The translations under genes and the position numbers were made by a program. A DNA stretch of 64,000 nt from the NCBI RefSeq assembly GCF_008367235.1, contig NZ_VTZS01000004.1, positions 248,001 through 312,000 of the forward strand, in the 5' to 3' direction. The DNA comes from Pareuzebyella sediminis. GTDB taxonomy: Bacteria; Bacteroidota; Bacteroidia; Flavobacteriales; Flavobacteriaceae. Positions 3,697 to 20,895 of the stretch are shown one piece after another. Position 1 is the stretch's first letter, and each line of letters opens with the position of its first letter. The notes beneath the pieces were generated by a model. That model made no database searches and was not told the DNA's origin. It worked only from the letters and a program-made list of their open reading frames with translations.

Positions 3697-5406
3697 CTAT
3701 TTCAACGAATCAATCACACTACCGCACGTTAACATTGCATCACCATAATAAGGATTACGGATTTCTTCTTCGGTGCTCAACCAAACCGCACCTTTATTGT
3801 TGTTTGCCATTGGGCATTTTTGAACGTATAGGGGGTTGTCAATGCTTTCGAGATTCATTGCTATTGCAACCAAATTTTCATTGAGAATGACGAAATGACT
3901 ACGTTGGTTTTCTAAATTAGAATTACTTGCAATGGCATCCAGCATTTCAATACTTTTGGATAGATGGGTTTTGAGCATTTTGTCCAAATCTTTTTGTGAT
4001 ATCACCTTCATTTTTTCGGAAGATACTTTCGCAAAATCGGAAACTTTTTCTGCATTACTCGCTACCAAAGCATCTTTGAGTTCAAGGTATGACGGCAAAG
4101 CCTTCACAAACTGTTCTTGAAAAGAAGTTGAAAGTGACATTTCCATCGCCATCATTTCTTTCTCTTCTTCAGTACTTTGATTCATCATCGATTTCTTCCC
4201 CTGCAATTGCGCAGCTGCATCTACGGTAAAAGTGCCATTGGTCACAATCTCATCGCCATTTTTTAAACCGGATGTAACCGTAAACATATCGCCATTGCGA
4301 TTGCCAAGAGTAACTTCCCGCATTTCAAAAACAGGTTCGTTGGCGTTGGTTTTGATGTACACCAAAGACCGTTCACCCGTCCACATCACAGCACTTGCAG
4401 GTATGGTCAGGTTTGATTCCGTATTTACCGTTGTTCCTTCTACTTTGCCAGTTACGAACATTCCGGGTTTTAGCATTCCATCGCTATTTTTGAGATTGGC
4501 CCGAACGGTTACGGTGCGGGTTTGGGTATTCAGAACAGGGTCTATAAATGAGACCGTTGCATCAAATTCCTTATTTGGATAAGCATTTGTCGTTACTGAA
4601 ATTTTCTGCCCTTTTTTAAACTCTGAAATCTGGTTTTCGTAGGCATCAAATTCCGCCCATACAGAGTTTAGGTTACTCACCTTTACAATGGGCTGTCCCT
4701 GTTTTACATAGTCGCCTTCGGCAGCCATTTTTTCTGAAACCGTTCCGGATACGGTCGCATAAATCGGAAAGTTCTCTTTGACCTTGCCGGATTCCTCTAT
4801 GCTATTGATTTGGGCTTCCGAGAGTTTCCAAAGTTTCAGTTTGTTGCGTACCGCCTTGTATAGTGAGGGTTGCGATTCTTTTAGCGAAGCCGCAGTAATC
4901 AATTCTTGCTGAGCAGCTATCAGATTAGGTGCATAAATGGTTGCCAACAATTGCCCTTTTTGTACTTCCTGACCTTCAAAATTGACGTTGAGCCGTTCAA
5001 TTCTACCATCGAAATAACTGGCCTGCACCGCATTTTCTTCCTCGTTCATCTTGATTTTTCCCGAAAGGGAAATCATATTCTCATCATCTACAGAAGCATT
5101 TCCCACGATGGATGTTTGGATGTCCGCCAATGCCATCGCATTTTTGGTCATCTTTATTTCGTTCATTGCAAGTCCATCAGCACCTGATTCCGCAGGAATT
5201 AAATCCATTCCGCAAATGGGACAATCACCTGGTTCGGGTTGCATAATCTGGGGGTGCATCGAGCAGGTCCACATTTGACCTTCCGCTTCTGTGGAATGGT
5301 CGTGCTTATCTGTCATAGATTCTTCCGATGAGCCACCGAAAATGAGCCAACCACCAAGCAGTCCGACAACGACTGCAATAGCGATATATATGAAATTCTT
5401 GTTCAT
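3697..5406 (-). CDS. Efflux RND periplasmic adaptor with heavy-metal-binding domain and C-terminal DUF3347
   Basis: Membrane-fusion protein (CusB-like, 569 residues) that links the RND pump to the outer-membrane channel and hands over metal. In order: an N-terminal anchor helix (about 5-25), a Cys-rich heavy-metal-binding domain (WTCSMHPQI ... CPICGMDL, 46-70), the adaptor core with lipoyl-like and beta-barrel parts (about 90-405), then a DUF3347 domain (about 430-565) containing CPMANNNKG and WLSTEEEIRNPYYG. The DUF3347 part is clearly related to the free-standing protein at 9698-10294. It is the only adaptor in view for two pumps. The start at 5406 is 7 nt from the upstream DUF305 gene's stop, so co-transcription is likely. 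Confidence 0.93.
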   Translation of the reverse strand: MNKNFIYIAIAVVVGLLGGWLIFGGSSEESMTDKHDHSTEAEGQMWTCSMHPQIMQPEPGDCPICGMDLIPAESGADGLAMNEIKMTKNAMALADIQTSIVGNASVDDENMISLSGKIKMNEEENAVQASYFDGRIERLNVNFEGQEVQKGQLLATIYAPNLIAAQQELITAASLKESQPSLYKAVRNKLKLWKLSEAQINSIEESGKVKENFPIYATVSGTVSEKMAAEGDYVKQGQPIVKVSNLNSVWAEFDAYENQISEFKKGQKISVTTNAYPNKEFDATVSFIDPVLNTQTRTVTVRANLKNSDGMLKPGMFVTGKVEGTTVNTESNLTIPASAVMWTGERSLVYIKTNANEPVFEMREVTLGNRNGDMFTVTSGLKNGDEIVTNGTFTVDAAAQLQGKKSMMNQSTEEEKEMMAMEMSLSTSFQEQFVKALPSYLELKDALVASNAEKVSDFAKVSSEKMKVISQKDLDKMLKTHLSKSIEMLDAIASNSNLENQRSHFVILNENLVAIAMNLESIDNPLYVQKCPMANNNKGAVWLSTEEEIRNPYYGDAMLTCGSVIDSLK

Positions 5407-6624: not shown

Positions 6625-9168
6625 TTAATCAATGTTTGAACCTTTAAGCCTAAGCGAATTGGCTATGACCGAAACCGAACTGAAACTCATCGCCAAAGCA
6701 GCTATCATTGGTGATAGTAAAATCCCAAAAAATGGATAGAGCAATCCCGCAGCAATGGGTATTCCCAAGGTGTTGTATATCATCGCAAAAAACAGATTCT
6801 GCTTAATGTTTCGCATTACCACATCGCTTAAATTTCTTGCCTTGACAATACCGTGTAGGTCGCCTTTGACCAAAGTAATGGCAGCACTTTCTATGGCCAC
6901 ATCAGTACCCGTTCCCATTGCGATGCCTACATCGCTTTTTGCCAAAGCAGGTGCATCATTGATACCGTCACCTGCCATCGCCACGACTTTTCCATTTTCT
7001 TGTAGTTTTTCAACTTCCTGCAATTTGTTTTCGGGAAGCATTCCCGCTTGAAAATCTGCAAGATTGAGTTCGTTGGCCACTGCCTGAGCTGTATCGTGGT
7101 TGTCGCCCGTGAGCATAATCACATCGATTCCCTTGTCCTGTAATTCCTTGATGGCCTTGGCACTCGTTTTCTTAATTTTATCACCAATTACTACATAACC
7201 GACAAGGTTTCCATCAATCGCGAGATAGGAAACGGTTTTGCCCTGCTTTTGGAAGAATTGGGCTTTTTCTTCCATTTCTTTGGAAAGCGTCGCCTTTGCA
7301 TATTCCATCATTTTGGCATTTCCTAAAGCCACCTTTTTACCGTTTACATTACCTTCAACACCTTTACCGGTTACGGCATTGAACCCGTCGGCTTTTAAGA
7401 AATCAGCTTTTTGTTCTTTGCCGTATTTGATGGTGGCTTCCGCAAGGGGATGCTCACTTTGATTATTCAGGGAAACAATGTATTGCAGTACTTCGCTATC
7501 GCTGAAACCGTTATCAAAAGACCCCATTTTTTCCACCGTGGGTTTTCCTTCGGTAATCGTTCCCGTTTTATCCACGATAAGGGTATCTACCTTATCCATT
7601 TTTTCAAGTGCCTCTGCATTCTTGATGAGCACCCCATTTTGTGCACCCTTACCCACACCGACCATCACGGACATCGGTGTTGCCAATCCCAATGCACAGG
7701 GACAGGCGATAATCAAAACGGCAATGGCATTGACCAAGGCATACACATAAGCTGGTTCTGGTCCCCAAATTGCCCAAATCCCAAAAGTGATTACGGCGAT
7801 GATGACCACGATGGGCACAAAGTAACCTGAAACGGTATCGGCCAGTTTTTGGATAGGCGCACGGCTACGACTGGCATCATTGACCATTTGGATGATTTGT
7901 GAAAGCAAAGTGTCGGAACCTACCTTTTCCGCTTTCATAAGGAAAGACTGGTTGCCGTTGATAGTTCCGCTACTGACTTTATCATCGGTTGACTTGTTGA
8001 CTGGAATGGGTTCGCCCGTTATCATCGATTCATCGATGGATGTTTCGCCTTCGGTGATAACACCATCAACGGGAATTTTATCGCCCGGTTTTACCCGAAG
8101 AATATCGCCCAATTCAATTTGGTCGATGGCCACTTCCTGTTCCTCACCATCCACGACTTTAACTGCCTTATTTGGCGCCAGTTTTAAAAGTTCCTTGACC
8201 GCGGAATTTGTCTTGCTATGGGCTCGGGCTTCCAATAGTTGGCCAAGTAAAACTAACGTGAGAATGACCGTGGCCGCTTCAAAATACACGTGTACGGTGC
8301 CCGCTTCGGTCTTGAACTGGTCTGGGAAAAAGTCCGGCATCAGCATCCCGAATACACTAAACAACCAAGCTACACCAGCACCGATGCCAATGAGCGTGAA
8401 CATATTGAGGTTCCACGTTTTTATGCTTCGATAAGCACGCTCGAAGAACATCCAAGTGGCATAGAACACCACGGGTAGGGAAAGTGCAAACTGAATCCAG
8501 TTCCAGTATTTCAGTTCCAAAATATCGTATAGCGGATTGTTGCTGACCATTTCGGACATCGCAATGATGAAAATAGGCAGTGTAAAGGCCGTGGCTATCC
8601 AGAACTTTTTGAGCAGTTTTTTATAGGTTTTTTCCTCTGCGGACAAATCTGGCTTCATCGGTACCAAGTCCATACCACAAATGGGGCAGCTTCCCGGTTC
8701 ATCCTTTACAATTTCAGGATGCATTGGGCACGTCCATTGTTCGCTGCGGGAACTGGCGGAAAAGCTTTGCTCTTCCACCAAATCCATTCCACAGACAGGG
8801 CAATCGCCTGGCTTGTCATAAGTATTATCGCCTTCACAGTGCATCGGGCAGTAGAACGTTCCGGTTCCCTTGCCTTTTGGTTTTTGCTTTTTCGCTTTCG
8901 TACTTCGACTATGCTCAGTATTAACTTTAGCCGAATCATCCTTGTGATGATGTTTGCCAGATTTGTGAATGCTATACGAACCACCATCTTGCTTTAGAGC
9001 TTCCTGAAATGATTCGATAGGAATATGCGATTCCATTTCAATGACCGCTTCAGATTTTTCCAAATCGACCAATACATCAATTACACCGTCCACTTTAGAG
9101 AGCGTTTTCTCGACGTGGGTTCTGCAACCGTTACAGGTCATTCCGTGTATGTGATAGGTGTGTTTCAT
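6625..9168 (-). CDS. copA: Copper-translocating P-type ATPase (CopA type)
   Basis: An 847-residue P1B ATPase that exports Cu(I) from the cytoplasm. In order: an HMA domain with MTCNGC (10-15); a Lys/His-rich linker (about 66-103); two Cys-rich heavy-metal-binding domains (106-131 and 145-170, both with C-P-x-C-G-M-D-L); membrane helices; the TGEP phosphatase motif; IIACPCALG near residue 489; phosphorylation site DKTGT near 533; GDGINDAPA near 736. The last helices carry YNTLGIPIAAG and AMSFSSVSV, the signature of Cu(I) (P1B-1) transporters. The ATG at 9168 places the HMA motif at residue 10 as expected. A flavobacterial repeat lies within the linker at 8901-8920. Confidence 0.96.
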   Translation of the reverse strand: MKHTYHIHGMTCNGCRTHVEKTLSKVDGVIDVLVDLEKSEAVIEMESHIPIESFQEALKQDGGSYSIHKSGKHHHKDDSAKVNTEHSRSTKAKKQKPKGKGTGTFYCPMHCEGDNTYDKPGDCPVCGMDLVEEQSFSASSRSEQWTCPMHPEIVKDEPGSCPICGMDLVPMKPDLSAEEKTYKKLLKKFWIATAFTLPIFIIAMSEMVSNNPLYDILELKYWNWIQFALSLPVVFYATWMFFERAYRSIKTWNLNMFTLIGIGAGVAWLFSVFGMLMPDFFPDQFKTEAGTVHVYFEAATVILTLVLLGQLLEARAHSKTNSAVKELLKLAPNKAVKVVDGEEQEVAIDQIELGDILRVKPGDKIPVDGVITEGETSIDESMITGEPIPVNKSTDDKVSSGTINGNQSFLMKAEKVGSDTLLSQIIQMVNDASRSRAPIQKLADTVSGYFVPIVVIIAVITFGIWAIWGPEPAYVYALVNAIAVLIIACPCALGLATPMSVMVGVGKGAQNGVLIKNAEALEKMDKVDTLIVDKTGTITEGKPTVEKMGSFDNGFSDSEVLQYIVSLNNQSEHPLAEATIKYGKEQKADFLKADGFNAVTGKGVEGNVNGKKVALGNAKMMEYAKATLSKEMEEKAQFFQKQGKTVSYLAIDGNLVGYVVIGDKIKKTSAKAIKELQDKGIDVIMLTGDNHDTAQAVANELNLADFQAGMLPENKLQEVEKLQENGKVVAMAGDGINDAPALAKSDVGIAMGTGTDVAIESAAITLVKGDLHGIVKARNLSDVVMRNIKQNLFFAMIYNTLGIPIAAGLLYPFFGILLSPMIAALAMSFSSVSVIANSLRLKGSNID
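8901..8920. repeat. CTTCGACTATGCTCAG repeat inside copA linker
   Basis: The sequence TACTTCGACTATGCTCAGTA sits in frame in copA and encodes about residues 83-90 (NTEHSRST) between the HMA domain and the first Cys-rich domain. It resembles the intergenic repeat at 3241-3263, suggesting that a mobile short repeat settled in a tolerant linker. Confidence 0.45.
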
Positions 9169-9697: not shown

Positions 9698-10294
9698 TTA
9701 GTTGATTTCACGTTGCACCTTACCACATTTTAGCATTTGGGCACCGAAATAGGGGTTTCTGATTTCTTCATTCATACTTAGCCAAGCACCGCCTTTATTG
9801 TTATCGTACATTGGGCAGTACTGCTCATAAATGGTCATTGAAGTTCCCGTTATCGCCACCATATCGGTCATATCCTTGCTAAGCGTTTTAAAATGCTCGC
9901 GTTGGTGGGCTATATCGCTCTCGCCAATATGCTCGGCGTGTTCGGTGGCATCCTCAATGATATCGTTTAGTTCGTTCTGCTCGCTGTCCGAGTAGCTCGA
10001 TGCATCAAAGGATTTGAGCGATTGTGCCAAGGTGTTGCCCAGTTCCTTTGCTTTGGAATTGTCATCGTTGACCAAAGCGTCCTTCAAGTTGAAATAGTCC
10101 TTCAATATCGCTTCTGCCTTGGCATCTTGGCTGTTATCCATAGCCATATCTTCCTTATCATCCATCTTTTCTTGATGTATTTCATTGCTCATTGGCTTGG
10201 CGGGTTCGTTCTTATTTCCGTCCTTGCAGGAAACTGTTACCATCACTACGGTAGCAAGTGCCATTGTACCTATCGTTCTCTTTACTGTTTTCAT
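9698..10294 (-). CDS. DUF3347 domain lipoprotein
   Basis: A 198-residue protein with a signal peptide ending in a lipobox-like VTVSCKDG (about 19-26), an acidic and Met-containing linker (MDDKEDMAMD) and a DUF3347 domain (about 60-198). The end of the domain has YCPMYDNNKGGAWLSMNEE and IRNPYFGAQMLKCG, nearly the same as the C terminus of the adaptor at 3697-5406. The conserved Cys and Met residues suggest Cu(I) binding, but that is inferred. It is probably anchored in the periplasm or outer membrane, and could act as a metal carrier similar in role to CusF. It lies 28 bp downstream of the multicopper oxidase gene. Confidence 0.87.
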   Translation of the reverse strand: MKTVKRTIGTMALATVVMVTVSCKDGNKNEPAKPMSNEIHQEKMDDKEDMAMDNSQDAKAEAILKDYFNLKDALVNDDNSKAKELGNTLAQSLKSFDASSYSDSEQNELNDIIEDATEHAEHIGESDIAHQREHFKTLSKDMTDMVAITGTSMTIYEQYCPMYDNNKGGAWLSMNEEIRNPYFGAQMLKCGKVQREIN

Positions 10295-10322: not shown

Positions 10323-12725
10323 TTAAAATCGGGCTAAAAGACCGCCACCCCAGCCATATCGGTTATTGTAATTTGCTTGTATTGAAAAATTTCGGGATAG
10401 GATATAAGAGGTTCCCACCAACCATTGCGTTTCGCCCTGATAGGATGTATCGCCTATATCGTTCACCCAACCAAAGTCTGCCCGGTATTCGTATTCCCCT
10501 TCAAGGAAAAAGCGTGGAAAAAGCAACAGTTCCCTATCGAGACGTATCCTTGGGCGCAGTTGATGGTCTACACTCACATCTACATTAAATCGGTAAGGCG
10601 TAAAGTATTTTACACCAATTAGACCTACTGTATTAAAGGTGTCATACGAGTCGGGTGTAGAAGTTTCGGTATTTACTCCTACATAGAGGCGCACCCAATC
10701 ATTGAGATACCTATTATAGTTTACTTCGGCTTCAAGGTTTTTGTTATAATCGAACTCTGCTCTTAAACCAAATTCATTCCGAATATTGCTTGACATCAGA
10801 AATAGTTCATTAAAGTTTGAGCCTGCACGCAACAATCCCCAAGAATAGTAATGGTCTGTTTCGTCAATCAGTTTTTGAACGGGAAAGTTTTTCATCCTTT
10901 CATCCCTTGGGGTATCATAGCTGAATACGCGAGCCATACCGCCCATCATATGGTACAGGATGTGGCAGTGAAAGAACCAATCGCCATACTCCTCGTTATA
11001 GAACTCGATAACCACTTTCTGCATCGGTGGCACATTGACGGTGTGTTTCAACGGCGAGCGCTCACCATTTTCATTGATTACCCTAAAATAATGCCCGTGA
11101 AGGTGCATCGGGTGGTGCATCATCGTTAGGTTGTTAAGGGTAATGCGGGTTACTTCACCACCCCTGATTTTAATCTTATCCGTTTCTGAAAGTGGCACAC
11201 CGTTAATACTCCACACATAGCGTTGCATATTTCCGGTCAGGTTTAATAGAATGTCGTTTACGGGCAAATCAGCCTTGTAGGTGGTATTTTCCTTCGCTTT
11301 TAAGAAATCATAGTTGAAATAGGTTTTACGGGTATCGTAATCAAAAGAGGAAGTGTCTTTTTGCATCATAGGCATATCGTGCCCCATATGGCCTCCCATC
11401 ATATGCGAAGGTTCGGTAGATTTCATTGGCATTGAATCTTTTTTCATTCCTGCCATACCGTCCATCTTTTTATCCATCTTCATTTGCTTATGGTCGTCCA
11501 TCTTCATATTGTCGCCCATTTCGCCTTTATTCATTGACATTTTGTCTTGCATTCCCATATTCATCTGGCCATCTTTCATATCCATTTTCATCCCGTAATT
11601 TTCCTTCAAAAACTCGGGTGTTTTTTTCTTTTTGTTACCCACCATTGCAGGGGCGCCCATCTTCATATCCATTTTGGCCATTTGTTTCATCATTGCAACC
11701 TTGTCCGGTCTCTCAATTCTTTTTGCTGGATACAGGCTTCCCTGTCCCAAGCGCAACGAGGTGCTACCAGAACCGTCTTGAGCGGTGGCGGTAACTTCCA
11801 AAGTACCTTCAGGGATGGTTACGATAACATCATAGGTTTCGGCAATACCAAAAAGGAAACGGCTTTTAGGTACAGGTTCCACATCAATACCATCGCCCGC
11901 AACGACCATAGGGTTGCCACCGCCAAAATCCATCCAGTAATAGGTAGAGGCGGATGCATTGATAAAGCGAAGCCGTACTTTTTCGCCTGTTTTGAATTCG
12001 GGATACTCGGCCAATGATTTTCCATTGGTCAGAAATGCCGGATAATAGATGTCGGCTATATCTGCTCCTTCCATACGGTCTCTCCAAAATTTCAGTTGTG
12101 CACCAAATGCGCCTTCCTTGATAACCCTGCCCAAAGGAACCGCCGTACCTTTTTTGACCTGATACCACTCGTTACCTCTTTTAAGGTTTCTCAAAACATT
12201 CATAGGATTTTCGTTGGTCCAATCAGAGAGTACCACAACCAAATCCTTGTCATATTCCAGAGTTTTTTCTTTTGGGTGAATAATAATAGACCCATAAACA
12301 CCGCTTTGCTCCTGTAGCATCGTGTGGGAATGGTACCAGTAGGTGCCTGATTGGTTGATTGGGATTCTGTATTGAAAAGTTGTTCCTGGTTTAATAGGTG
12401 GCGTGGTCAAATAGGGAACGCCATCGTAAAAATTGGGTAATATCAACCCGTGCCAATGTACAGAGGTTTCCACATCCATTTTATTGGTAACATTGATAAT
12501 GGCGAGGTCGCCCTCGGTGAATTCCAAGACTGGTCCAGGAATACTACCATTGATGGTCATTCCTTTTGCTGTTACACCAGCGAGCGTCATTTCATTTTCT
12601 TCAATGGTTAAGTTATACTCCTTGACAGGTCTACCTTCTTCATTTCTGTCCGCACCGTTTGTGCCTACTTGGGCAAATACAGTAGAAGAAAACAGCAATA
12701 GGGTGGTGATTTGTAATATTTTCAT
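10323..12725 (-). CDS. Multicopper oxidase (CopA/PcoA type) fused to a CopB-like outer-membrane barrel
   Basis: An 800-residue secreted protein. It has a signal peptide (1-18, ending VFAQ) and three cupredoxin domains with all four copper-ligand motifs: HWHGLILPN (90-), YHSHTMLQ (131-), HPMHLHGHYF (near 540) and FHCHILYHMM (near 590). Between about 345 and 455 is a very Met-rich insertion (repeated MKM, MNMGM, HMMGGHMGHDM) typical of PcoA-class cuprous oxidases. After the oxidase, from about 640 to 800, the sequence alternates like an outer-membrane beta-barrel (ending NRYGWGGGLLARF) and resembles copper resistance protein B. PcoA/CopA and PcoB/CopB are normally separate proteins. It starts 28 bp from the DUF3347 gene, and follows the tolC gene by 2 bp. 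Confidence 0.93.
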   Translation of the reverse strand: MKILQITTLLLFSSTVFAQVGTNGADRNEEGRPVKEYNLTIEENEMTLAGVTAKGMTINGSIPGPVLEFTEGDLAIINVTNKMDVETSVHWHGLILPNFYDGVPYLTTPPIKPGTTFQYRIPINQSGTYWYHSHTMLQEQSGVYGSIIIHPKEKTLEYDKDLVVVLSDWTNENPMNVLRNLKRGNEWYQVKKGTAVPLGRVIKEGAFGAQLKFWRDRMEGADIADIYYPAFLTNGKSLAEYPEFKTGEKVRLRFINASASTYYWMDFGGGNPMVVAGDGIDVEPVPKSRFLFGIAETYDVIVTIPEGTLEVTATAQDGSGSTSLRLGQGSLYPAKRIERPDKVAMMKQMAKMDMKMGAPAMVGNKKKKTPEFLKENYGMKMDMKDGQMNMGMQDKMSMNKGEMGDNMKMDDHKQMKMDKKMDGMAGMKKDSMPMKSTEPSHMMGGHMGHDMPMMQKDTSSFDYDTRKTYFNYDFLKAKENTTYKADLPVNDILLNLTGNMQRYVWSINGVPLSETDKIKIRGGEVTRITLNNLTMMHHPMHLHGHYFRVINENGERSPLKHTVNVPPMQKVVIEFYNEEYGDWFFHCHILYHMMGGMARVFSYDTPRDERMKNFPVQKLIDETDHYYSWGLLRAGSNFNELFLMSSNIRNEFGLRAEFDYNKNLEAEVNYNRYLNDWVRLYVGVNTETSTPDSYDTFNTVGLIGVKYFTPYRFNVDVSVDHQLRPRIRLDRELLLFPRFFLEGEYEYRADFGWVNDIGDTSYQGETQWLVGTSYILSRNFSIQANYNNRYGWGGGLLARF

Positions 12726-12727
12726 TT

Positions 12728-13945
12728 TTAATTTATTAAATAGTTTAAAAGTGCTGATTGCACGTAATACATCTTTATGGATTCGATTTGGTTCATCTGA
12801 AATTTCAGTTGCAATTCCTGAATGTCCAGCACATCGTTAAAATCGATGGTTCCCGTTTCATAATTCTTTATTAATATTTCCTCGGCATCGTTAGCCTGCA
12901 TTAAACTCTTTTCTTGGGTATTGAACTGAATACGGGCTTGATTGCGCTGTGATTTTGCTTTCGCGAAAGCGGTTTCAAGTACATTCAAACGCTCTGTTTT
13001 TTGTGATTCGATTTCCAGTTGTCTCAGTTCGTTCTGTTTGGAAACCGATGAATAGCGGTTGTTGAAAATAGGTATGGACAGCGATACCATTGGCATCACG
13101 ATATCCTTGCCGTTGTCGCTAAAGGTCATATCGGGACGTTCGGAAACGGGTACATAGTCCAATCCAAAACCGATGTTCGGGGCACTTTCCTTTTGGTTCA
13201 GCAATTCGGATTGTTCAATGGACTCGTAAAGTCTATCATATTTGAGCAGTTCGGGATTAAGCGCCAATCCTTCATCGCTGTATATCGGGTCTTCCGTTGG
13301 GATGGTCATTTCTGGGACGATTTCAACGGCAATGCTTTCCTTTCGGTTCAAAAGATTGTTGAAGCTGACCTGTTCCGCCAAATACTCCTCCTGCAAGACC
13401 TCTTTTTGTTGTTGCAGTTCGTTCTGGCGAATCTGCAACCGTAGAACATCAACTGCGGAAGCCTTGCCCACTTCCACAGAGGTCAATGCCAACCGTTCGT
13501 AAGTTTGTAGTAGTTGGATGTTTTCGTCCAGTACATCCTGTTTCGCATTGATGGCATATAGTTGATAGTAGGATTGGGCGACCGAAAGTGCCAGTTTTCG
13601 TTTGGCAATGGCAATTTCAACAAACTCGGTTTCCGCCATTGAGCTGGCATAGTTTTCCCGTGCCGTTATCGTACCGAACCACGGCAACATCTGCGAAATC
13701 GAAAATCGTGCCCGTTGCGCACCCGTTCGGGTTTCGGGTTCGCTTACAAAGTATCCTGCGCTTACCACAGTATTAGGTAGCGTATTGACTTCGTTCACTT
13801 TTTCTTCGGCGATATTGTACCGCAGCTCGTAAGCCTGAATATCTGGATTGTTCGCTTCTGCTTCCTGTATATAAGATTGAAGCTCTTGCGCTTCCGCGTA
13901 AAAAGAAACAAGCAATAATCCGATGATGATTTTTACATTTTTCAT
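12728..13945 (-). CDS. TolC-family outer-membrane efflux protein
   Basis: A 405-residue outer-membrane channel component. It has a signal peptide (MKNVKIIIGLLLVSFYAEA) and two repeats of long coiled helices with the family's pattern (EANNPDIQAYELRYNIAEEK near the start; NYETGTIDFNDVLDIQELQL near the C terminus). The start ATG overlaps the stop of the upstream RND pump gene (ATGA), indicating tight translational coupling, so it most likely serves the pump at 13942-17739. It is slightly short for the family but has both repeat halves. A GCTTTCGCGAAAGC palindrome lies in it at 12957-12970. Confidence 0.93.
   Translation of the reverse strand: MKNVKIIIGLLLVSFYAEAQELQSYIQEAEANNPDIQAYELRYNIAEEKVNEVNTLPNTVVSAGYFVSEPETRTGAQRARFSISQMLPWFGTITARENYASSMAETEFVEIAIAKRKLALSVAQSYYQLYAINAKQDVLDENIQLLQTYERLALTSVEVGKASAVDVLRLQIRQNELQQQKEVLQEEYLAEQVSFNNLLNRKESIAVEIVPEMTIPTEDPIYSDEGLALNPELLKYDRLYESIEQSELLNQKESAPNIGFGLDYVPVSERPDMTFSDNGKDIVMPMVSLSIPIFNNRYSSVSKQNELRQLEIESQKTERLNVLETAFAKAKSQRNQARIQFNTQEKSLMQANDAEEILIKNYETGTIDFNDVLDIQELQLKFQMNQIESIKMYYVQSALLNYLIN
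12957..12970. repeat. Perfect palindrome GCTTTCGCGAAAGC inside tolC-like gene
   Basis: Second copy of the 14-bp palindrome also seen at 17-30. It encodes AFAK in the C-terminal helical region of the TolC-type protein. Confidence 0.6.
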
Positions 13946-16900
13946 TTGCTCGCTCGTTTAAGTTGATTTTCTTCCCGCCAGCTATATAGTACGGGCAACA
14001 GGAAATATGAGGTTACATCAATGAGCATCCCACCCACAATGGGAATGGCCATTGGAATCATTATATCGCTTCCCTTTCCGGTGGATGTTAGCACTGGCAA
14101 CAAGGCAAGAACGGTCGTTACGGTCGTCATCAAACAGGGACGGATACGCTTGCCTGCCGCTTCACGGGTAGCTTGACGAATGCCCGGTTTGTCATTCGGT
14201 TTTTCCTTATCGAAAGATTGGTCGAGATAGGTTGCCATCACCACACCGTCATCGGTAGCAATACCAAAGAGTGCGATGAATCCGACCCAGACCGCAACGC
14301 TCAGGTTGATAGTTTTGATATTGAACAACTCGCGAAGGTTCTCACCGAACAAATTGAAATTGAGAAACCAGTCTTGTCCATAGAGCCAAATCATCACAAA
14401 GCCACCTGCAAATGCTACGGCAATGGCGGTAAATACCATCAATGAGGTGGTGACCGATTTAAACTGAAAGTATAGAATGAGAAATATGATAATCAAGCAT
14501 AGCGGAACCACGATGGACAGGGTTTTCTCTGCACGCAACTGGTTTTCATAGGTGCCCGTAAACTTGTAGCTGATGCCTTTGGGTACGGTCAGTTCGCCGC
14601 TGTCTATCTTTTCTTGAATCAAGGCCTGGGCATTTTCCACCACATCCACTTCGGCAAAGCCGTCCAGCTTGTCAAATAAAACATAGCCGACCAAGAAGGT
14701 GTCCTCACTTTTGATGACCTGCGGACCTTGCTCATACCGGATGTCCACGAGTTCGCCAAGGGGAACGGGGCTTCCTTTTTCCACGGGAACGTAGATATTC
14801 TTTAGGTCGGTCGGATTATCACGCAGCTCTCGTGGGTAGCGTACCCTAACGGCGTAGCGTTCCCTACCTTCGACTGTTTGGGTCAGGGGCATCCCACCTA
14901 CGGCCACTTGCAGGATTTCCTGTACGTCCATAATCGAAACCCCGTAACGCGCCAACTGTTCCCGTTTGATATCCACCAACAGATAGGGTTTGCCCACGAT
15001 ACGGTCGGCAAATACGGCCTGTTCTTTTACACCTTCGGCCTGTTTCAATATTTCTTCGAGTTCCAAGCCGAAAGCTTCGATTTCCCGTAAGTCCTGCCCC
15101 TTGACCTTAATGCCCATTGGCGCGCGCATACCCGTTTGCAGCATCACCAATCGGGTTTCGATAGGCTGTAACTTAGGGGCGGAAGTAATACCGGGCAGTT
15201 TAGTGACCCTGACGATTTCGTTCCAGATATCATCCGGGCTCTGGATTTCAGGTCGCCAGTTTCGGTAGTACTCGCCATCATCATCGGGAATCAATTCGTT
15301 TCTTGTGATGGTAGTTTGCAATTGGGATGCTTCATAACTGGCATCGTTTTCTACTTCGTTGTTCGGATTAATATGGAACCTATCATTTTTCAATACAAAA
15401 AGTCCGTCGTCGTTTACCCGATAGCGTTGCCGTTCCCCTGAAGCGTTGCGCATATATTCCGACTTGTACTGAATCACGTTCTCGTACATCGAAAGCGGTG
15501 CCGGGTCAAGCGCGGATTCGGTGCGGCCTGCCTTTCCGACCACGGTCTCGATTTCAGGGATGGTGGCCACCGCCATATCCAATTGTTGCAAGACCCGTTT
15601 ATTTTCGGCTACACCTGAGTGCGGTAGCGAGGTAGGCATCAACAGGAACGAACCCTCGTTGAGCGCTGGCATAAATTCCTTACCCGTGTTGCGCATTATG
15701 AAGAAACCGAGAACCAGCAATGTGGTGGGAATTATCAAGAACAGCAATCTGTTTTGCAATGCCCATCTTAAGATGCTATCGTAGTATTTTCTGAGTAGCG
15801 AAAAGATGCCCAGAACACCAAAACAGCTTACCGCTACAAAAATGAGGTTCATAATCAGGCTGCGGTCGAAGCCGAGCGGTCGCCAGTATTCAGCCAATAG
15901 GAATACAACTGCGATTGTGGCAATAGCCGTATTGATGAGATTTTTTTGCTTTACCGCTACGCTCTCCCTTTGGTCGTGAATCTCGCCAGCTCGATTTCGC
16001 GAAAGCGTAACACGCATCGATAAAATGGCTACCAAGCCAAAAGCGACAAGTACCAATCCTATCCAATACCCAAAAATCACTGCGGTGATTCCCAAAAGGA
16101 TTAAAAGCCCATTGATGGCATATTTGAGCCGTTCCCGCATTTCGGTCTTTCTAAAGAAAGTGGCTGCGAATGGCGGTATAAGGAATAGGGCAATAACGAG
16201 TGCAGCGGCCAATGCCATTGTTTTGGTAAATGCCAATGGTCGAAAGAGTTTCCCTTCAGCACCAATCATCGTAAACACCGGAAGGAAACTAATTATTGTA
16301 GTCATTACAGCAGTAACAATAGCGCCGGAAACTTCGGATGTGGCGTTGTAAACGATTTCGTTTGTTGTATAGGGTTGACCGTTTTTGTTTACCCGCAAGT
16401 CTTCATCTTCCAGATGTCGAATCATATTTTCGGCAAGGATGACCCCGACATCTACCATCGTACCAATAGCAATGGCGATACCCGAAAGTGCCACAATGTT
16501 CGCATCCACATTAAAGAGCTTCATCGTGATAAAGACCATCAACACCGCCACGGGCAATAATCCAGAAATCAATATGGATGCTCTGAGATTGAAAACCATT
16601 ATGATAATGACCAAAATGGTAATCAGGATTTCCAAGGTCAGGGCCTCGTTGAGCGTACCCAAGGTTTCTTGAATGAGTTCGGTACGGTCGTAAAAGGGGA
16701 CAATAGTGACTTGGGAGGTTCTACCGTCGGCCAGTTCTTTTGAAGGAAGCCCCGAGCTTACCTCGTCGATTTGGTCTTTGACATTATTGATGACTTCCAG
16801 CGGATTGGCACCGTAACGGGCAACTACCACACCGCCCACGACTTCGGCACCTTCCTTGTCCAAAATGCCGCGACGTGTAGCTGGTCCCAAGTGTACCTTG

Positions 16901-17739
16901 CCTACATCCTTTATCCTGATGGAAGTGAAATTCTCGGAATCGACTACCGCATTTTCTATATCGGCTATGGATTTTACGTACCCCAGACCGCGCACCAGGT
17001 ATTCGGCCTTGTTCATTTCCAAGGTTTGCGCACCGATGTCCTGATTACTTTCCCTAACGGCCTTTACAATATCCGCCAGACCGATGTTGTACTGCCGCAT
17101 CTTTTCGGGGTCAACATCCACTTGGTATTCCTGAACGTATCCGCCAATGGATGCCACTTCACTTACACCGCTTGCAGAAGAGAGCGCATATTTTACGTAG
17201 TAATCCTGTATGCTTCGTAGTTCCTGTAAATCCCATCCACCTGTAACGTTTCCCTCTTTGTCACGACCTTCCAGAGTGTACCAAAAAATCTGTCCCAATC
17301 CCGTGGCATCCGGGCCCAAGGCGGGATTGACACCATCGGGCAACAGACCGCTGGGTAGCGAATTGAGCTTTTCGAGGATGCGGCTACGCGACCAGTAGAA
17401 TTCGATGTCCTCTTCAAAAATGATGTAGATACTGGAAAACCCGAACATCGAAGAACTACGAATGGTCTTGACGCCAGGTATTCCGAGAAGGGAAGTGGTG
17501 AGCGGGTAGGTAATCTGGTCCTCGATATCCTGAGGAGAGCGCCCTTGCCACTTGGTGAAAACAATCTGTTGGTTTTCGCCAATATCGGGTATGGCATCTA
17601 CAGCCACAGGGTCATTGGGCAATATTCCGGTGTCCCAATTAAAGGGTCCGTTCACGATACCCCAACCCACGAAAAGGGCTAGCATCAGTACCGCAACGAG
17701 CTTATTTTCTATAAGGAATTTTATGCCTTTGTTCAGCAT
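13942..17739 (-). CDS. cusA: Heavy-metal RND pump, CusA-like (Cu/Ag), with extra membrane helices
   Basis: A 1265-residue pump, longer than the roughly 1050 residues usual for CusA. The TM4 region reads GIAIAIGTMVDVGVILAEN, matching the monovalent Cu(I)/Ag(I) subgroup rather than the DFG...DGA form of the first pump. Between TM6 (ending FAATFFRKTEMRERL) and the resumption of the conserved core (NTGKEFMPALNEGSF) there are about four added hydrophobic helices and a charged loop (LSRNRAGEIHDQR), which explains the length. Met-rich positions for copper relay could not be assigned with confidence. It overlaps the tolC gene by 4 nt. The upstream gap to the HYC_CC_PP gene holds a hairpin repeat at 17844-17863. 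Confidence 0.94.
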   Translation of the reverse strand: MLNKGIKFLIENKLVAVLMLALFVGWGIVNGPFNWDTGILPNDPVAVDAIPDIGENQQIVFTKWQGRSPQDIEDQITYPLTTSLLGIPGVKTIRSSSMFGFSSIYIIFEEDIEFYWSRSRILEKLNSLPSGLLPDGVNPALGPDATGLGQIFWYTLEGRDKEGNVTGGWDLQELRSIQDYYVKYALSSASGVSEVASIGGYVQEYQVDVDPEKMRQYNIGLADIVKAVRESNQDIGAQTLEMNKAEYLVRGLGYVKSIADIENAVVDSENFTSIRIKDVGKVHLGPATRRGILDKEGAEVVGGVVVARYGANPLEVINNVKDQIDEVSSGLPSKELADGRTSQVTIVPFYDRTELIQETLGTLNEALTLEILITILVIIIMVFNLRASILISGLLPVAVLMVFITMKLFNVDANIVALSGIAIAIGTMVDVGVILAENMIRHLEDEDLRVNKNGQPYTTNEIVYNATSEVSGAIVTAVMTTIISFLPVFTMIGAEGKLFRPLAFTKTMALAAALVIALFLIPPFAATFFRKTEMRERLKYAINGLLILLGITAVIFGYWIGLVLVAFGLVAILSMRVTLSRNRAGEIHDQRESVAVKQKNLINTAIATIAVVFLLAEYWRPLGFDRSLIMNLIFVAVSCFGVLGIFSLLRKYYDSILRWALQNRLLFLIIPTTLLVLGFFIMRNTGKEFMPALNEGSFLLMPTSLPHSGVAENKRVLQQLDMAVATIPEIETVVGKAGRTESALDPAPLSMYENVIQYKSEYMRNASGERQRYRVNDDGLFVLKNDRFHINPNNEVENDASYEASQLQTTITRNELIPDDDGEYYRNWRPEIQSPDDIWNEIVRVTKLPGITSAPKLQPIETRLVMLQTGMRAPMGIKVKGQDLREIEAFGLELEEILKQAEGVKEQAVFADRIVGKPYLLVDIKREQLARYGVSIMDVQEILQVAVGGMPLTQTVEGRERYAVRVRYPRELRDNPTDLKNIYVPVEKGSPVPLGELVDIRYEQGPQVIKSEDTFLVGYVLFDKLDGFAEVDVVENAQALIQEKIDSGELTVPKGISYKFTGTYENQLRAEKTLSIVVPLCLIIIFLILYFQFKSVTTSLMVFTAIAVAFAGGFVMIWLYGQDWFLNFNLFGENLRELFNIKTINLSVAVWVGFIALFGIATDDGVVMATYLDQSFDKEKPNDKPGIRQATREAAGKRIRPCLMTTVTTVLALLPVLTSTGKGSDIMIPMAIPIVGGMLIDVTSYFLLPVLYSWREENQLKRASK
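15995..16006. repeat. Third TTTCGCGAAAGC palindrome, inside cusA
   Basis: TTTCGCGAAAGC, a partial match to the 14-bp palindrome (left arm ends GA instead of GC). It encodes part of LSRNR in the charged loop between the extra helices of the pump. Confidence 0.5.
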
Positions 17740-17881: not shown

Positions 17882-18301
17882 TCAAATTAAATAAGTCTCG
17901 TAGAGTATCTGAACGTCCCGTTCAATAAAGGGGGGCGAGTAATCCTTGAAGGGAACGATATTTTCATCAAGTCCCTCGAAAAGATTGATATAGGTGTAGA
18001 AAAATGTGGCAACGAAGGTTTGTTGCTCAAAAGTAAGTTTGTTGAATGATGTTTTAAGGTCGTCGCTACCTTCCTTCACGATTTTTTGGTCTGAGCAACA
18101 CGATTTATTGCTCATTGAAGGATTTTCACAACCCGTGGTTGGTTGTGCCTTTTCCATTCCGCAGGTTTCTGCCTTTGTGAAGAAACTAAAATCGACCAAA
18201 GAGTCCCCGCAGTAGTGTATATCAACCGTGAATGACATCGTAGTGAACATCACTACAAATGCCATTAAAACAGATAATATTTTATGGAAAACCTTTTTCA
18301 T
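17882..18301 (-). CDS. HYC_CC_PP family small secreted protein
   Basis: A 139-residue protein with a signal peptide (MKKVFHKILSVLMAFVVMFT) followed by the diagnostic HYCG (31-34), CC in NKSCCSDQK, and PP in KDYSPPFIE. These three landmarks define the HYC_CC_PP family, found beside metal genes in Bacteroidota. Its function is unknown; a periplasmic metal-binding role is inferred from the Cys/His residues and the context. A TAATTTTG box ends 5 nt before the ATG, so it may have its own promoter. It lies between cusA (142 bp downstream) and the GDCCVxC gene (74 bp upstream). Confidence 0.83.
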   Translation of the reverse strand: MKKVFHKILSVLMAFVVMFTTMSFTVDIHYCGDSLVDFSFFTKAETCGMEKAQPTTGCENPSMSNKSCCSDQKIVKEGSDDLKTSFNKLTFEQQTFVATFFYTYINLFEGLDENIVPFKDYSPPFIERDVQILYETYLI

Positions 18302-18574: not shown

Positions 18575-19198
18575 TTATTCAGAAACTTTATAACCTGTAC
18601 TGTTGATAGCCTTTATAATTTGTTCCTCAGTTACTTTGGTGCGGTCGTATTTGACGCTTGTATTGCCCTCTTCATAGCTGGCCTCCACGGAAATTATACC
18701 GTCCAACTTGTTGACCTCTCTCTCAATGTGGTTTTCGCAACCCGTACAGGTCATTCTTTCGACGGTAAAGGTTTTTTCAACAATATTATCATATTGCACA
18801 TATACAATTTCCTTGGTTGGTTGGGCATAAAAAATTCCGGAATAATAGGGAAATGCCAACATCAGTCCAGCAAAGAGGGTCACAATAAGCAGAAATGTTT
18901 TTGATTGTAGAAAGGAAGGTTTCCCTGCCTTGCCGACAGGCAGGTCATCATCTTCACAGGCACAATCAATTTCGTGCTGTGATTTTGGCTTTAGCTTCTG
19001 GTACCAAGCAAATGCAATTACCAATAAGGTCAGGCCTATGAGATAGGGTCTAAAAGGCTCTACCCAAGAAAAGGTAAATGCAATCCCGCTTGTTCCTGCC
19101 AATAGTGCAAGCACTGGTGTGATGCAACAGACTGAGGCAGCGACCGCTGTGAAAATTCCGGTGTACGCTGCTGTATTTGATGATTTGGATGTGTTCAT
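18575..19198 (-). CDS. merTP: Mercuric transport fusion protein MerTP
   Basis: A 207-residue inner-membrane protein. The N-terminal MerT part has vicinal cysteines in the first helix (AASVCCITPVLALL, C24-C25) and further helices at about 51-68 and 102-120. The C-terminal MerP-like HMA domain carries MTCTGCENH (150-158). The family takes Hg(II) into the cell for reduction by MerA, yet no merA is present in the window, so the substrate may be another soft metal or merA may be elsewhere. A palindromic repeat is inserted in the loop between helices 2 and 3 (residues about 87-93). It starts 1 nt after the ArsR gene's stop. Confidence 0.9.
   Translation of the reverse strand: MNTSKSSNTAAYTGIFTAVAASVCCITPVLALLAGTSGIAFTFSWVEPFRPYLIGLTLLVIAFAWYQKLKPKSQHEIDCACEDDDLPVGKAGKPSFLQSKTFLLIVTLFAGLMLAFPYYSGIFYAQPTKEIVYVQYDNIVEKTFTVERMTCTGCENHIEREVNKLDGIISVEASYEEGNTSVKYDRTKVTEEQIIKAINSTGYKVSE
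18924..18944. repeat. CCTGCCT-N7-AGGCAGG inverted repeat inside merTP
   Basis: A 7-bp perfect inverted repeat, of the CCTGCC...GGCAGG type common in flavobacterial intergenic regions. It is in frame and encodes the DLPVGKAG segment of the MerT cytoplasmic loop, which is not expected in MerT. Confidence 0.5.
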
Positions 19199-19199
19199 T

Positions 19200-19571
19200 C
19201 TATGCTACTTTTTTGTTTTCTTTAAGCTTGCCGAATATCCCTTCCAACACATTGCTTGAATCCTTGACCAAGGAGTAGTACAACGTTTGGCCATCACGTC
19301 TCGAAGTTATCAATCCTGCATCCTTCATTTTACGGATATGCTGCGAAATTGCGGGTACGCTCATTTCCAGTATATCCGAGAAATCACAAGGACAAAGTTC
19401 ACCTTCCTCGTTCAAGAGGAAAAGTATCTTCAGTCTGGTCTCATTACCTGTCAGGGCGAGTACCTTGCCAATACTGTTGATTGATTCTGAACTTGTTTTC
19501 AACGTCTCACGACAGCGCATCAATTGCTTCTGGTCTGCCTCGGCACGGGTGCAACTTAATTCAAGAGACAT
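19200..19571 (-). CDS. ArsR/SmtB-family metal-responsive repressor
   Basis: A 123-residue winged-helix repressor. The core has NETRLKILFLLNEEGELCPCDF, with candidate metal ligands C60 and C62 at the ArsR-type alpha-3 position, then the recognition helix SVPAISQHIRKMKDAGLI (71-88) and the wing RRDGQTLYYSL. Two more cysteines near the N terminus (C7, C20) could complete a thiolate site for a soft metal such as Hg(II), Cd(II) or Pb(II). It heads the merTP-GDCCVxC module and is likely autoregulated: a 9-2-9 inverted repeat lies on its promoter (19608-19627). It may govern part or all of the downstream run, but no copper-specific regulator is visible. Confidence 0.92.
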   Translation of the reverse strand: MSLELSCTRAEADQKQLMRCRETLKTSSESINSIGKVLALTGNETRLKILFLLNEEGELCPCDFSDILEMSVPAISQHIRKMKDAGLITSRRDGQTLYYSLVKDSSNVLEGIFGKLKENKKVA

Positions 19572-19586
19572 AATTACAATTTTGAG

Positions 19587-19627
19587 TAAAGCTACAATTA
19601 TATAATTATTTAAGCAAATGCTTAAAT
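19587..19627 (-). promoter_or_regulatory. arsR promoter with overlapping ArsR-type operator
   Basis: On the minus strand TTTG (19618-19615) and TAGCTTTA (19594-19587) are 20 nt apart, a good Bacteroidota -33/-7 pair 16 nt from the arsR start. A perfect 9-bp inverted repeat, ATTTAAGCA-AA-TGCTTAAAT (19608-19627), is centred on the -33 box. ArsR-family operators are typically such A/T-rich repeats with a 2-nt centre. Binding would block the -33 contact. Confidence 0.65.
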
Positions 19628-19677
19628 ATATTTATTTTGTTTTTCTAATAGGTTAGAGTTTTTAAGAAAATATGTTA

Positions 19678-20895
19678 TTATAAAAAATTTACCACACTGT
19701 CCAAAGCATCGTCAGCATCTTTATGAATAAAATTAGCTTGATAGTTAATGGTGGTTTTCAAATCCGTATGGCGATATAATTTTTGAAGCATTAGTGGATG
19801 AATGTTGTCGCCTGCAATATTGCCAAAAGAATGTCGAGCAATGTGCATCGTAACTTTTTTCTGGATGCCTGCTCTTTTTGCAATCTTTTTGAGGTGGTCA
19901 TTGAATTTTTTGTTTGCTACTTTTTTCTTTCGATATATGTCTTTCGCATCAGATAAGTCGGCTTTTTTCATTTCTGGGAAAACAAAGTCATCATCATTTA
20001 CTCTGTCCTCAATGTACTGTAGCAAGATTTTTTCAACCTTAGCTGGAATTTTAAGGGACAGTAACTTTGAATTTTTTCCCATTCTATAATGCAATCGCCC
20101 ATCATAAATCTGGGACCATCTTATAAACAACACATCCGAAACACGCATTCCAGCAAAATAGAAACTGAACAACCAAACGTTCAATGAATGTCTTTCCATA
20201 TTAGTTAGTTCAGCAACACTTTCAAGGGCTTTTATTTCTTTACCTGTAAGCCCTGTTTTTGTGGTTTCGGGAAATTTGATTTTAAACTTACCCTTGCCAA
20301 AGGGGTATATTTCCTTGCTAACAACTTTATCCCGAATGGCTCTATTAAACAGTAGCCTTATCAAGACCATTACATTCATTGCAGTAGTTTCAGTTAATGA
20401 ACAAGAACCTTTTAAATAAATCTTGAATTTTTTGAGAAAGCGCTCATCGATTTCTTGGAAAGTCAAATGTCGGCCAGAGCAGTATTTTTCTATATAACTC
20501 ACCCAAGCTGAATCTGTAGAATGGCGATTGATTTTCTTTTCAGCTTCTAAGGCTTCAAGATGCTCGTCAGCAAAATCAAAAAAAGTTAAGCTCGAAGTTG
20601 GCTTATATATTTCTTTTTTGATTTGTCGAGCAGTAGCAGCTTTATTATCCGTCTGTAATGCAATAAGCCCTTTTCTGGCTTCGGATAGTTTGGAAGCTAT
20701 CAAATTGTTCAGGCTTTCAGCTTCAGAATGCGATTTTTTTACCTTTAGGTTTTTAGAGTCCCAATCCTCTAATTCAATGTAATGGCCTATGTGTTTGTAA
20801 GTTGAACGACGGTCTTTGGTTATCCTAATTGCAAGCGGATACAGCCCTGTTGCGTTAGGCTTTTTGCGAAGAATTATTTTTGCACTTGTTGACAT
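19678..20895 (-). CDS. int: Tyrosine recombinase / integrase of the island
   Basis: A 405-residue site-specific integrase of the Bacteroidota mobile-element type. It has an N-terminal arm-binding-like domain (about 1-85), a SAM-like core-binding domain (about 100-200) and a catalytic domain with Arg in AGMRVSDVLFIRW (near 252), HIARHSFGN (near 350), HTDLKTTINYQ with the nucleophilic Tyr (near 383). All the expected catalytic residues are visible, so the enzyme is probably active. It reads away from the attachment site at 21105-21159, with direct repeats between. Composition is more A/T-rich than the metal genes to its left, perhaps a different ancestry within the island. Confidence 0.93.
   Translation of the reverse strand: MSTSAKIILRKKPNATGLYPLAIRITKDRRSTYKHIGHYIELEDWDSKNLKVKKSHSEAESLNNLIASKLSEARKGLIALQTDNKAATARQIKKEIYKPTSSLTFFDFADEHLEALEAEKKINRHSTDSAWVSYIEKYCSGRHLTFQEIDERFLKKFKIYLKGSCSLTETTAMNVMVLIRLLFNRAIRDKVVSKEIYPFGKGKFKIKFPETTKTGLTGKEIKALESVAELTNMERHSLNVWLFSFYFAGMRVSDVLFIRWSQIYDGRLHYRMGKNSKLLSLKIPAKVEKILLQYIEDRVNDDDFVFPEMKKADLSDAKDIYRKKKVANKKFNDHLKKIAKRAGIQKKVTMHIARHSFGNIAGDNIHPLMLQKLYRHTDLKTTINYQANFIHKDADDALDSVVNFL

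Follow-up and report, generated by a model that had tools for sequence, protein, structure and literature searches.

We found a gene for a CopA/PcoA-type multicopper oxidase that continues into a predicted C-terminal barrel on one contig of Pareuzebyella sediminis, in a stretch of 64,000 nucleotides that was analysed as a whole (hereafter, the window). The reading frame starts with ATG, encodes 800 residues followed by a stop codon, and has no internal stops (Table 1). As the initial annotation had noticed, this gene is probably a natural one-chain fusion of the PcoA–PcoB (CopA–CopB) type. The gene shares 99.9% DNA identity with Maribacter flavus KCTC 42508.

Table 1. Features of the fused gene and of the surrounding operon, in window positions
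Feature	Position	Strand	Basis
Whole fused gene: CopA/PcoA-type multicopper oxidase with C-terminal 12-stranded barrel, 800 aa	10323..12725	-	ORF, TIGR01480, full-length model
Signal peptide of Sec type (residues 1-19, MKILQITTLLLFSSTVFAQ) without a twin-arginine motif	12669..12725	-	Sequence reading
Three cupredoxin domains, residues about 40-603	10917..12608	-	Pfam Cu-oxidase_3, Cu-oxidase, Cu-oxidase_2
Met-rich disordered insert, residues 345-465	11331..11693	-	Composition count; low pLDDT
Short linker with short helix, residues 604-625	10851..10916	-	Full-length model, sequence
Barrel domain, residues 626-800, 12 predicted strands	10326..10850	-	AlphaFold2 models, fold search, CopB-like by profile
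TolC/CusC-like outer-membrane efflux gene, immediately upstream with a gap of 2 bases	12728..13945	-	Named from sequence, no family search
CusA-like RND pump gene	13942..17739	-	Named from sequence, no family search
DUF3347 protein, downstream	9698..10294	-	Pfam
Copper-type P-type ATPase with HMA and HMBD domains	6625..9168	-	Pfam
CusB-like membrane fusion protein with HMBD and DUF3347 domains	3697..5406	-	Pfam

The setting of the fused gene is a copper efflux operon. CusA-like and TolC-like genes accompany the fused gene in 71 of the 72 longer related loci, and a DUF3347 gene is present in 70 of them. In the operon of the window, DUF3347 occurs twice, once as a protein of its own and once at the C-terminus of the CusB-like protein. 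Unlike in the Pco systems, no PcoC, PcoD or PcoE genes were noticed in this operon. The cusA gene is preceded by a gene (17882-18301) for a Cys-containing protein of 139 residues with a signal-like N-terminus and no Pfam family; genes similar to it are found in 52 of the 72 related loci, with a median identity of 54%. Further upstream of the copper operon, a MerT-HMA gene (mercuric transport type) and an ArsR regulator gene (18575-20895) lie beside a tyrosine recombinase gene. Among the 72 related loci, which reach only 6 kb each way, a MerT-like gene was found once and an ArsR gene never, and this rarity together with the adjacent recombinase hints at a mobile island.

The oxidase carries all four copper motifs intact, as had been claimed for it: HWHG at residue 90, HSH at 132-134, HPMHLHGH at 538 and HCHxxxH from 586. 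The TIGR01480 model (CopA copper-resistance oxidase) matched residues 24-600 with 408.8 bits (E 3.5e-122), the curated cut-off being 478.95 bits. A Met-rich region between oxidase domains 2 and 3, which is expected of CopA/PcoA proteins under TIGR01480, is present. It had been described as a Met/His-rich insert, and only the first half of that description stands, as 31 Met and 4 His were counted in the 121 residues from 345 to 465. The insert is predicted to be disordered, with pLDDT below 50 across residues 354-468 of the full-length model. In one related locus (L181 of G332), the fused oxidase frame has 940 residues, with an extra heavy-metal-binding motif (CPMHPEI...CPKCGMDL) ahead of the oxidase.

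Beyond the last copper motif, the chain continues for about 195 residues (604-800), rather than the roughly 160 first estimated, and ends in NNRYGWGGGLLARF, as initially read. Barrel-like strands had been suspected in this tail, and structure prediction returned a full barrel. The AlphaFold2 model of the tail, built from an alignment of 50 tails, is a complete barrel of exactly 12 strands with a mean pLDDT of 87.2, and the full-length model repeats the 12 strands at 627-799 with the same boundaries. The 12 predicted strands rule out a half-barrel. When the tail model was compared with the whole PDB (350,542 chains), the top match was PcoB (7PGE; E 3.9e-7, probability 1.00, with a TM-score of only 0.55). 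NanC followed with an E-value of 7.3e-5, and then other barrels, which places PcoB ahead of the next fold by about two orders of magnitude. Counted from the HCH motif, the chain runs on for a nearly constant 215-217 residues up to the stop codon in all 87 oxidase loci of the first search rounds, indicating that the tail is not a read-through, annotation or assembly artefact.

The sequence kinship of the tail to CopB is more distant. As a single sequence, the tail scored 19.8 bits against the Pfam CopB family (PF05275), which does not reach the gathering cut-off of 27, and a generic barrel model scored about equally in HMMER. Because these single-sequence matches are weak, we built one profile from the 50 tails and another from 15 CopB proteins of other Bacteroidota, and ran each against the other set together with decoys. 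With the CopB profile, 50/50 tails were matched, at a median of 9.9 bits and a maximum of 21.5; the tail profile in turn matched 15/15 CopB proteins (median 14.1 bits). The decoys stayed lower: reversed tails reached at most 0.4 bits, 1000 shuffled tails at most 6.6, and 16 other outer-membrane proteins at most 5.0 in either direction. Successive deepening of the alignments took the hhalign probability for tail against CopB from 29% through 55% to 79% (73-79% for the deepest ones). OmpLA, the fold relative named for PcoB (PMC9210255), gave 2.6% and was rejected as an alternative parent of the tail. The tail and CopB align strand for strand, in order, from strand 4, and share a YxR motif in strand 4 and a PYxF motif after strand 6. 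Sequence searches of the PDB, by phmmer with the whole protein and by hmmsearch with the tail profile, returned only oxidases and a designed barrel, and no PcoB; PcoB appears to be too distant from the tail for detection through sequence alone. The proposed resemblance to CopB/PcoB thus holds in that the profiles link both ways and are specific against the decoys and OmpLA, and fails at the curated Pfam cut-off. Neither of the two outcomes named beforehand as refuting it, a predicted fold that is no barrel and a lack of CopB similarity in sensitive profile searches, was observed. The likeliest reading is that the tail and CopB share distant ancestry. Since the Pfam score is under the cut-off, we do not claim strict CopB membership; the tail looks like CopB and probably works like CopB.

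We compared the paired acidic pore residues of PcoB (D97-E207 and E130-E223) with the tail. E223 and E207 have aligned candidate counterparts in E746 and E732, and E657 is a candidate counterpart of E130 on a strand register set by hand, which departs from where hhalign puts the gaps. No clear counterpart of D97 could be placed in the tail/CopB alignments. Nearly all members of one half of the fused family retain E657 and E746, and those of the other half do not. The members of this second half, which end in HYDSDMG, differ in their charged barrel residues (R at positions 657 and 687, E at position 655) and are gapped around E746, which suggests a different pore. The N-terminal domain of PcoB stabilises PcoA and may dock it (PMC12509749). 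The disordered His/Met-rich N-terminal tail that PcoB and most of its homologues have is missing ahead of the barrel in the fused protein, where there is only the linker of residues 604-625 with one Met and one His. We infer that the covalent joint would make such a tail unnecessary.

The distribution of the fusion was investigated in a draw of 296 Bacteroidota genomes, with the tail, CopB and oxidase searches matched per genome. The tail was found in 51 of the 296 genomes, nearly all matches lying within frames of at least 700 residues. Essentially all of these matches carry the same tail at nearly the same length, and those that do not are visibly broken or lie at contig edges; at every inspected locus the tail stands behind an oxidase, with a few frame-broken copies. 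A separate CopB was found in 22/296 genomes, and no genome has both the tail and a separate CopB. This zero overlap has a chance of 0.013 if the two are independent, a figure that is indicative only because of shared ancestry. The 72 genomes with a strong CopA-type oxidase divide into 51 with the fused form and 21 with a separate CopB, leaving none with both and none with neither. In the unfused loci, the oxidase gene is directly upstream of copB, which starts at the oxidase stop codon or within about 60 bases of it, often overlapping. Marine flavobacteria and their relatives join in one chain what others make as two neighbouring proteins, and the fused tail appears to replace the separate CopB throughout the clade.

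Fused and unfused oxidases also differ in their export signals, which were assigned as Tat or Sec by the RR motif and not by a signal-peptide program. A twin-arginine (Tat) signal is present in 12/12 unfused Bacteroidota oxidases examined, as in Escherichia coli PcoA. Among the 101 fused oxidases examined, the RR motif is found in none of 93 flavobacterial loci and in none of eight more distant ones. A Tat signal belongs to the definition of CopA/PcoA in TIGR01480, and the fused oxidase, judged by its N-terminal motif, is without one; we have therefore filed it as a variant rather than as a standard CopA/PcoA member. Barrel proteins must pass the inner membrane unfolded via Sec, whereas Tat exports folded enzymes, and a switch from Tat to Sec makes sense for this reason. 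A tree built from 50 oxidase domains splits the fused oxidases from the unfused ones on one branch with 100/100 support, with a warning from the tool about long branches, and it requires only one change between the two forms. Given this single-branch split, the fusion and the export switch look like one old, shared event and not like repeated coincidences. The association of the fusion with the switch accordingly comes from a single transition.

As a whole, the best explanation, which we regard as quite probable, is a fusion of the PcoA–PcoB type that is exported via Sec, anchored by its outer-membrane barrel, and that oxidises Cu(I) in the periplasm beside its own pore. The analysis itself shows the anatomy, with both domains on one chain, a predicted 12-strand fold nearest to PcoB, a separate CopB replaced, and a change from Tat to Sec as judged by motif; insertion, topology, enzymatic activity, and ion conduction with its direction are what we infer. 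The chain would leave the cytoplasm unfolded through Sec, and the BAM machinery would insert the C-terminal 12-stranded barrel into the outer membrane so that both of its ends point to the periplasm. PcoB (7PGE) is a 12-stranded barrel with both ends periplasmic (PMC9210255); in this orientation the oxidase would stay in the periplasm. There it may fold, load its four coppers and work at the mouth of its own barrel. The Met-rich insert would capture Cu(I), the oxidase would turn it into Cu(II), and the barrel would give Cu(II) a way through the outer membrane, in parallel with the Cus-type pump encoded next to it. A more far-reaching joint reading, which in our judgement could equally well prove right or wrong, is that one chain replaces PcoA and PcoB throughout the clade, and that the fusion forced the change from Tat (folded) to Sec (unfolded) export, with copper loading in the periplasm and a direct hand-off of Cu(II) to the protein's own pore.

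Alternatively, the barrel might be an outer-membrane anchor only, possibly of unrelated origin and PcoB-like by chance, which holds the oxidase and conducts no copper. The sub-threshold Pfam match, the equal score of the generic barrel model, the PcoB D97 site that is not clearly kept, and the lack of the E657/E746 pair in the second half of the family would all fit such an anchor. We nevertheless consider it unlikely, because PcoB was the best of all PDB chains by so wide a margin in E-value, the reciprocal CopB profiles beat every decoy, and the tail and CopB never co-occur while together they cover every sampled genome with a CopA-type oxidase. The order of an N-terminal passenger and a C-terminal 12-stranded barrel is also the classical layout of autotransporters, and intimin, NalP and EstA are among the weaker fold matches, so the barrel might instead export the oxidase and display it on the cell surface, and not hold it in the periplasm. 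That is very improbable in view of the short linker and helix ahead of the barrel and of the unfused counterparts, in which a PcoA-type oxidase carries a Tat signal and the pore is a separate protein of the PcoB type. No Pfam autotransporter domain matched the fused protein at E-values up to 10, and membership in the type V autotransporters was rejected on this ground. Least probable of all is a cleavage of the tail after export that leaves the oxidase as a soluble periplasmic enzyme: the length and sequence of the tail are conserved over the clade, and none of these fused genomes has a separate CopB.

The PcoA–PcoB type fusion has the same oxidase family with a Met-rich insert, the 12-stranded PcoB-fold barrel and the copper-resistance setting in common with PcoA–PcoB of Escherichia coli, CopA–CopB of Pseudomonas and PcoAB of Caulobacter. 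Those systems consist of two proteins, the oxidase having a Tat signal, whereas here there is one chain with a Sec-type signal. The same architecture (signal peptide, oxidase and porin-like region) is found in the multicopper oxidase G2EDV6 of Bizionia argentinensis, of which residues 611-809 were called porin-like with some similarity to PcoB (PMC11213822). This was a single sentence, without a structure or an analysis of distribution, replacement or export, and it means that the fusion itself is not new. Beyond this sentence, we found nothing in the open-access literature on a CopA–CopB fusion or on outer-membrane proteomics of such oxidases. The completeness of the fusion, the replacement of CopB and the Tat-to-Sec switch appear to be new here. 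The Cyc2-type fused porin-cytochrome likewise joins an outer-membrane barrel to a redox domain in a single polypeptide (PMC5566968), but it is a heme protein from a different family, and its proposed role is iron oxidation at the cell surface and not the handling of copper.

The role of PcoB and the direction of copper through it are disputed, with inward conduction of Cu(II), and thus import, reported on one side (PMC9210255) and a function in efflux on the other (PMC12509749). The occurrence of the oxidase and the pore as a natural fusion gives strong genomic evidence for their working side by side, and it fixes their ratio at one to one. Direct contact between PcoA and PcoB has so far been a proposal only; the fused protein offers a single chain in which the hand-off from oxidase to pore is testable. 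The coupled change of the export signal is also a clean example of a membrane domain that appears to determine both the export route of a metalloenzyme and the way in which it is loaded.
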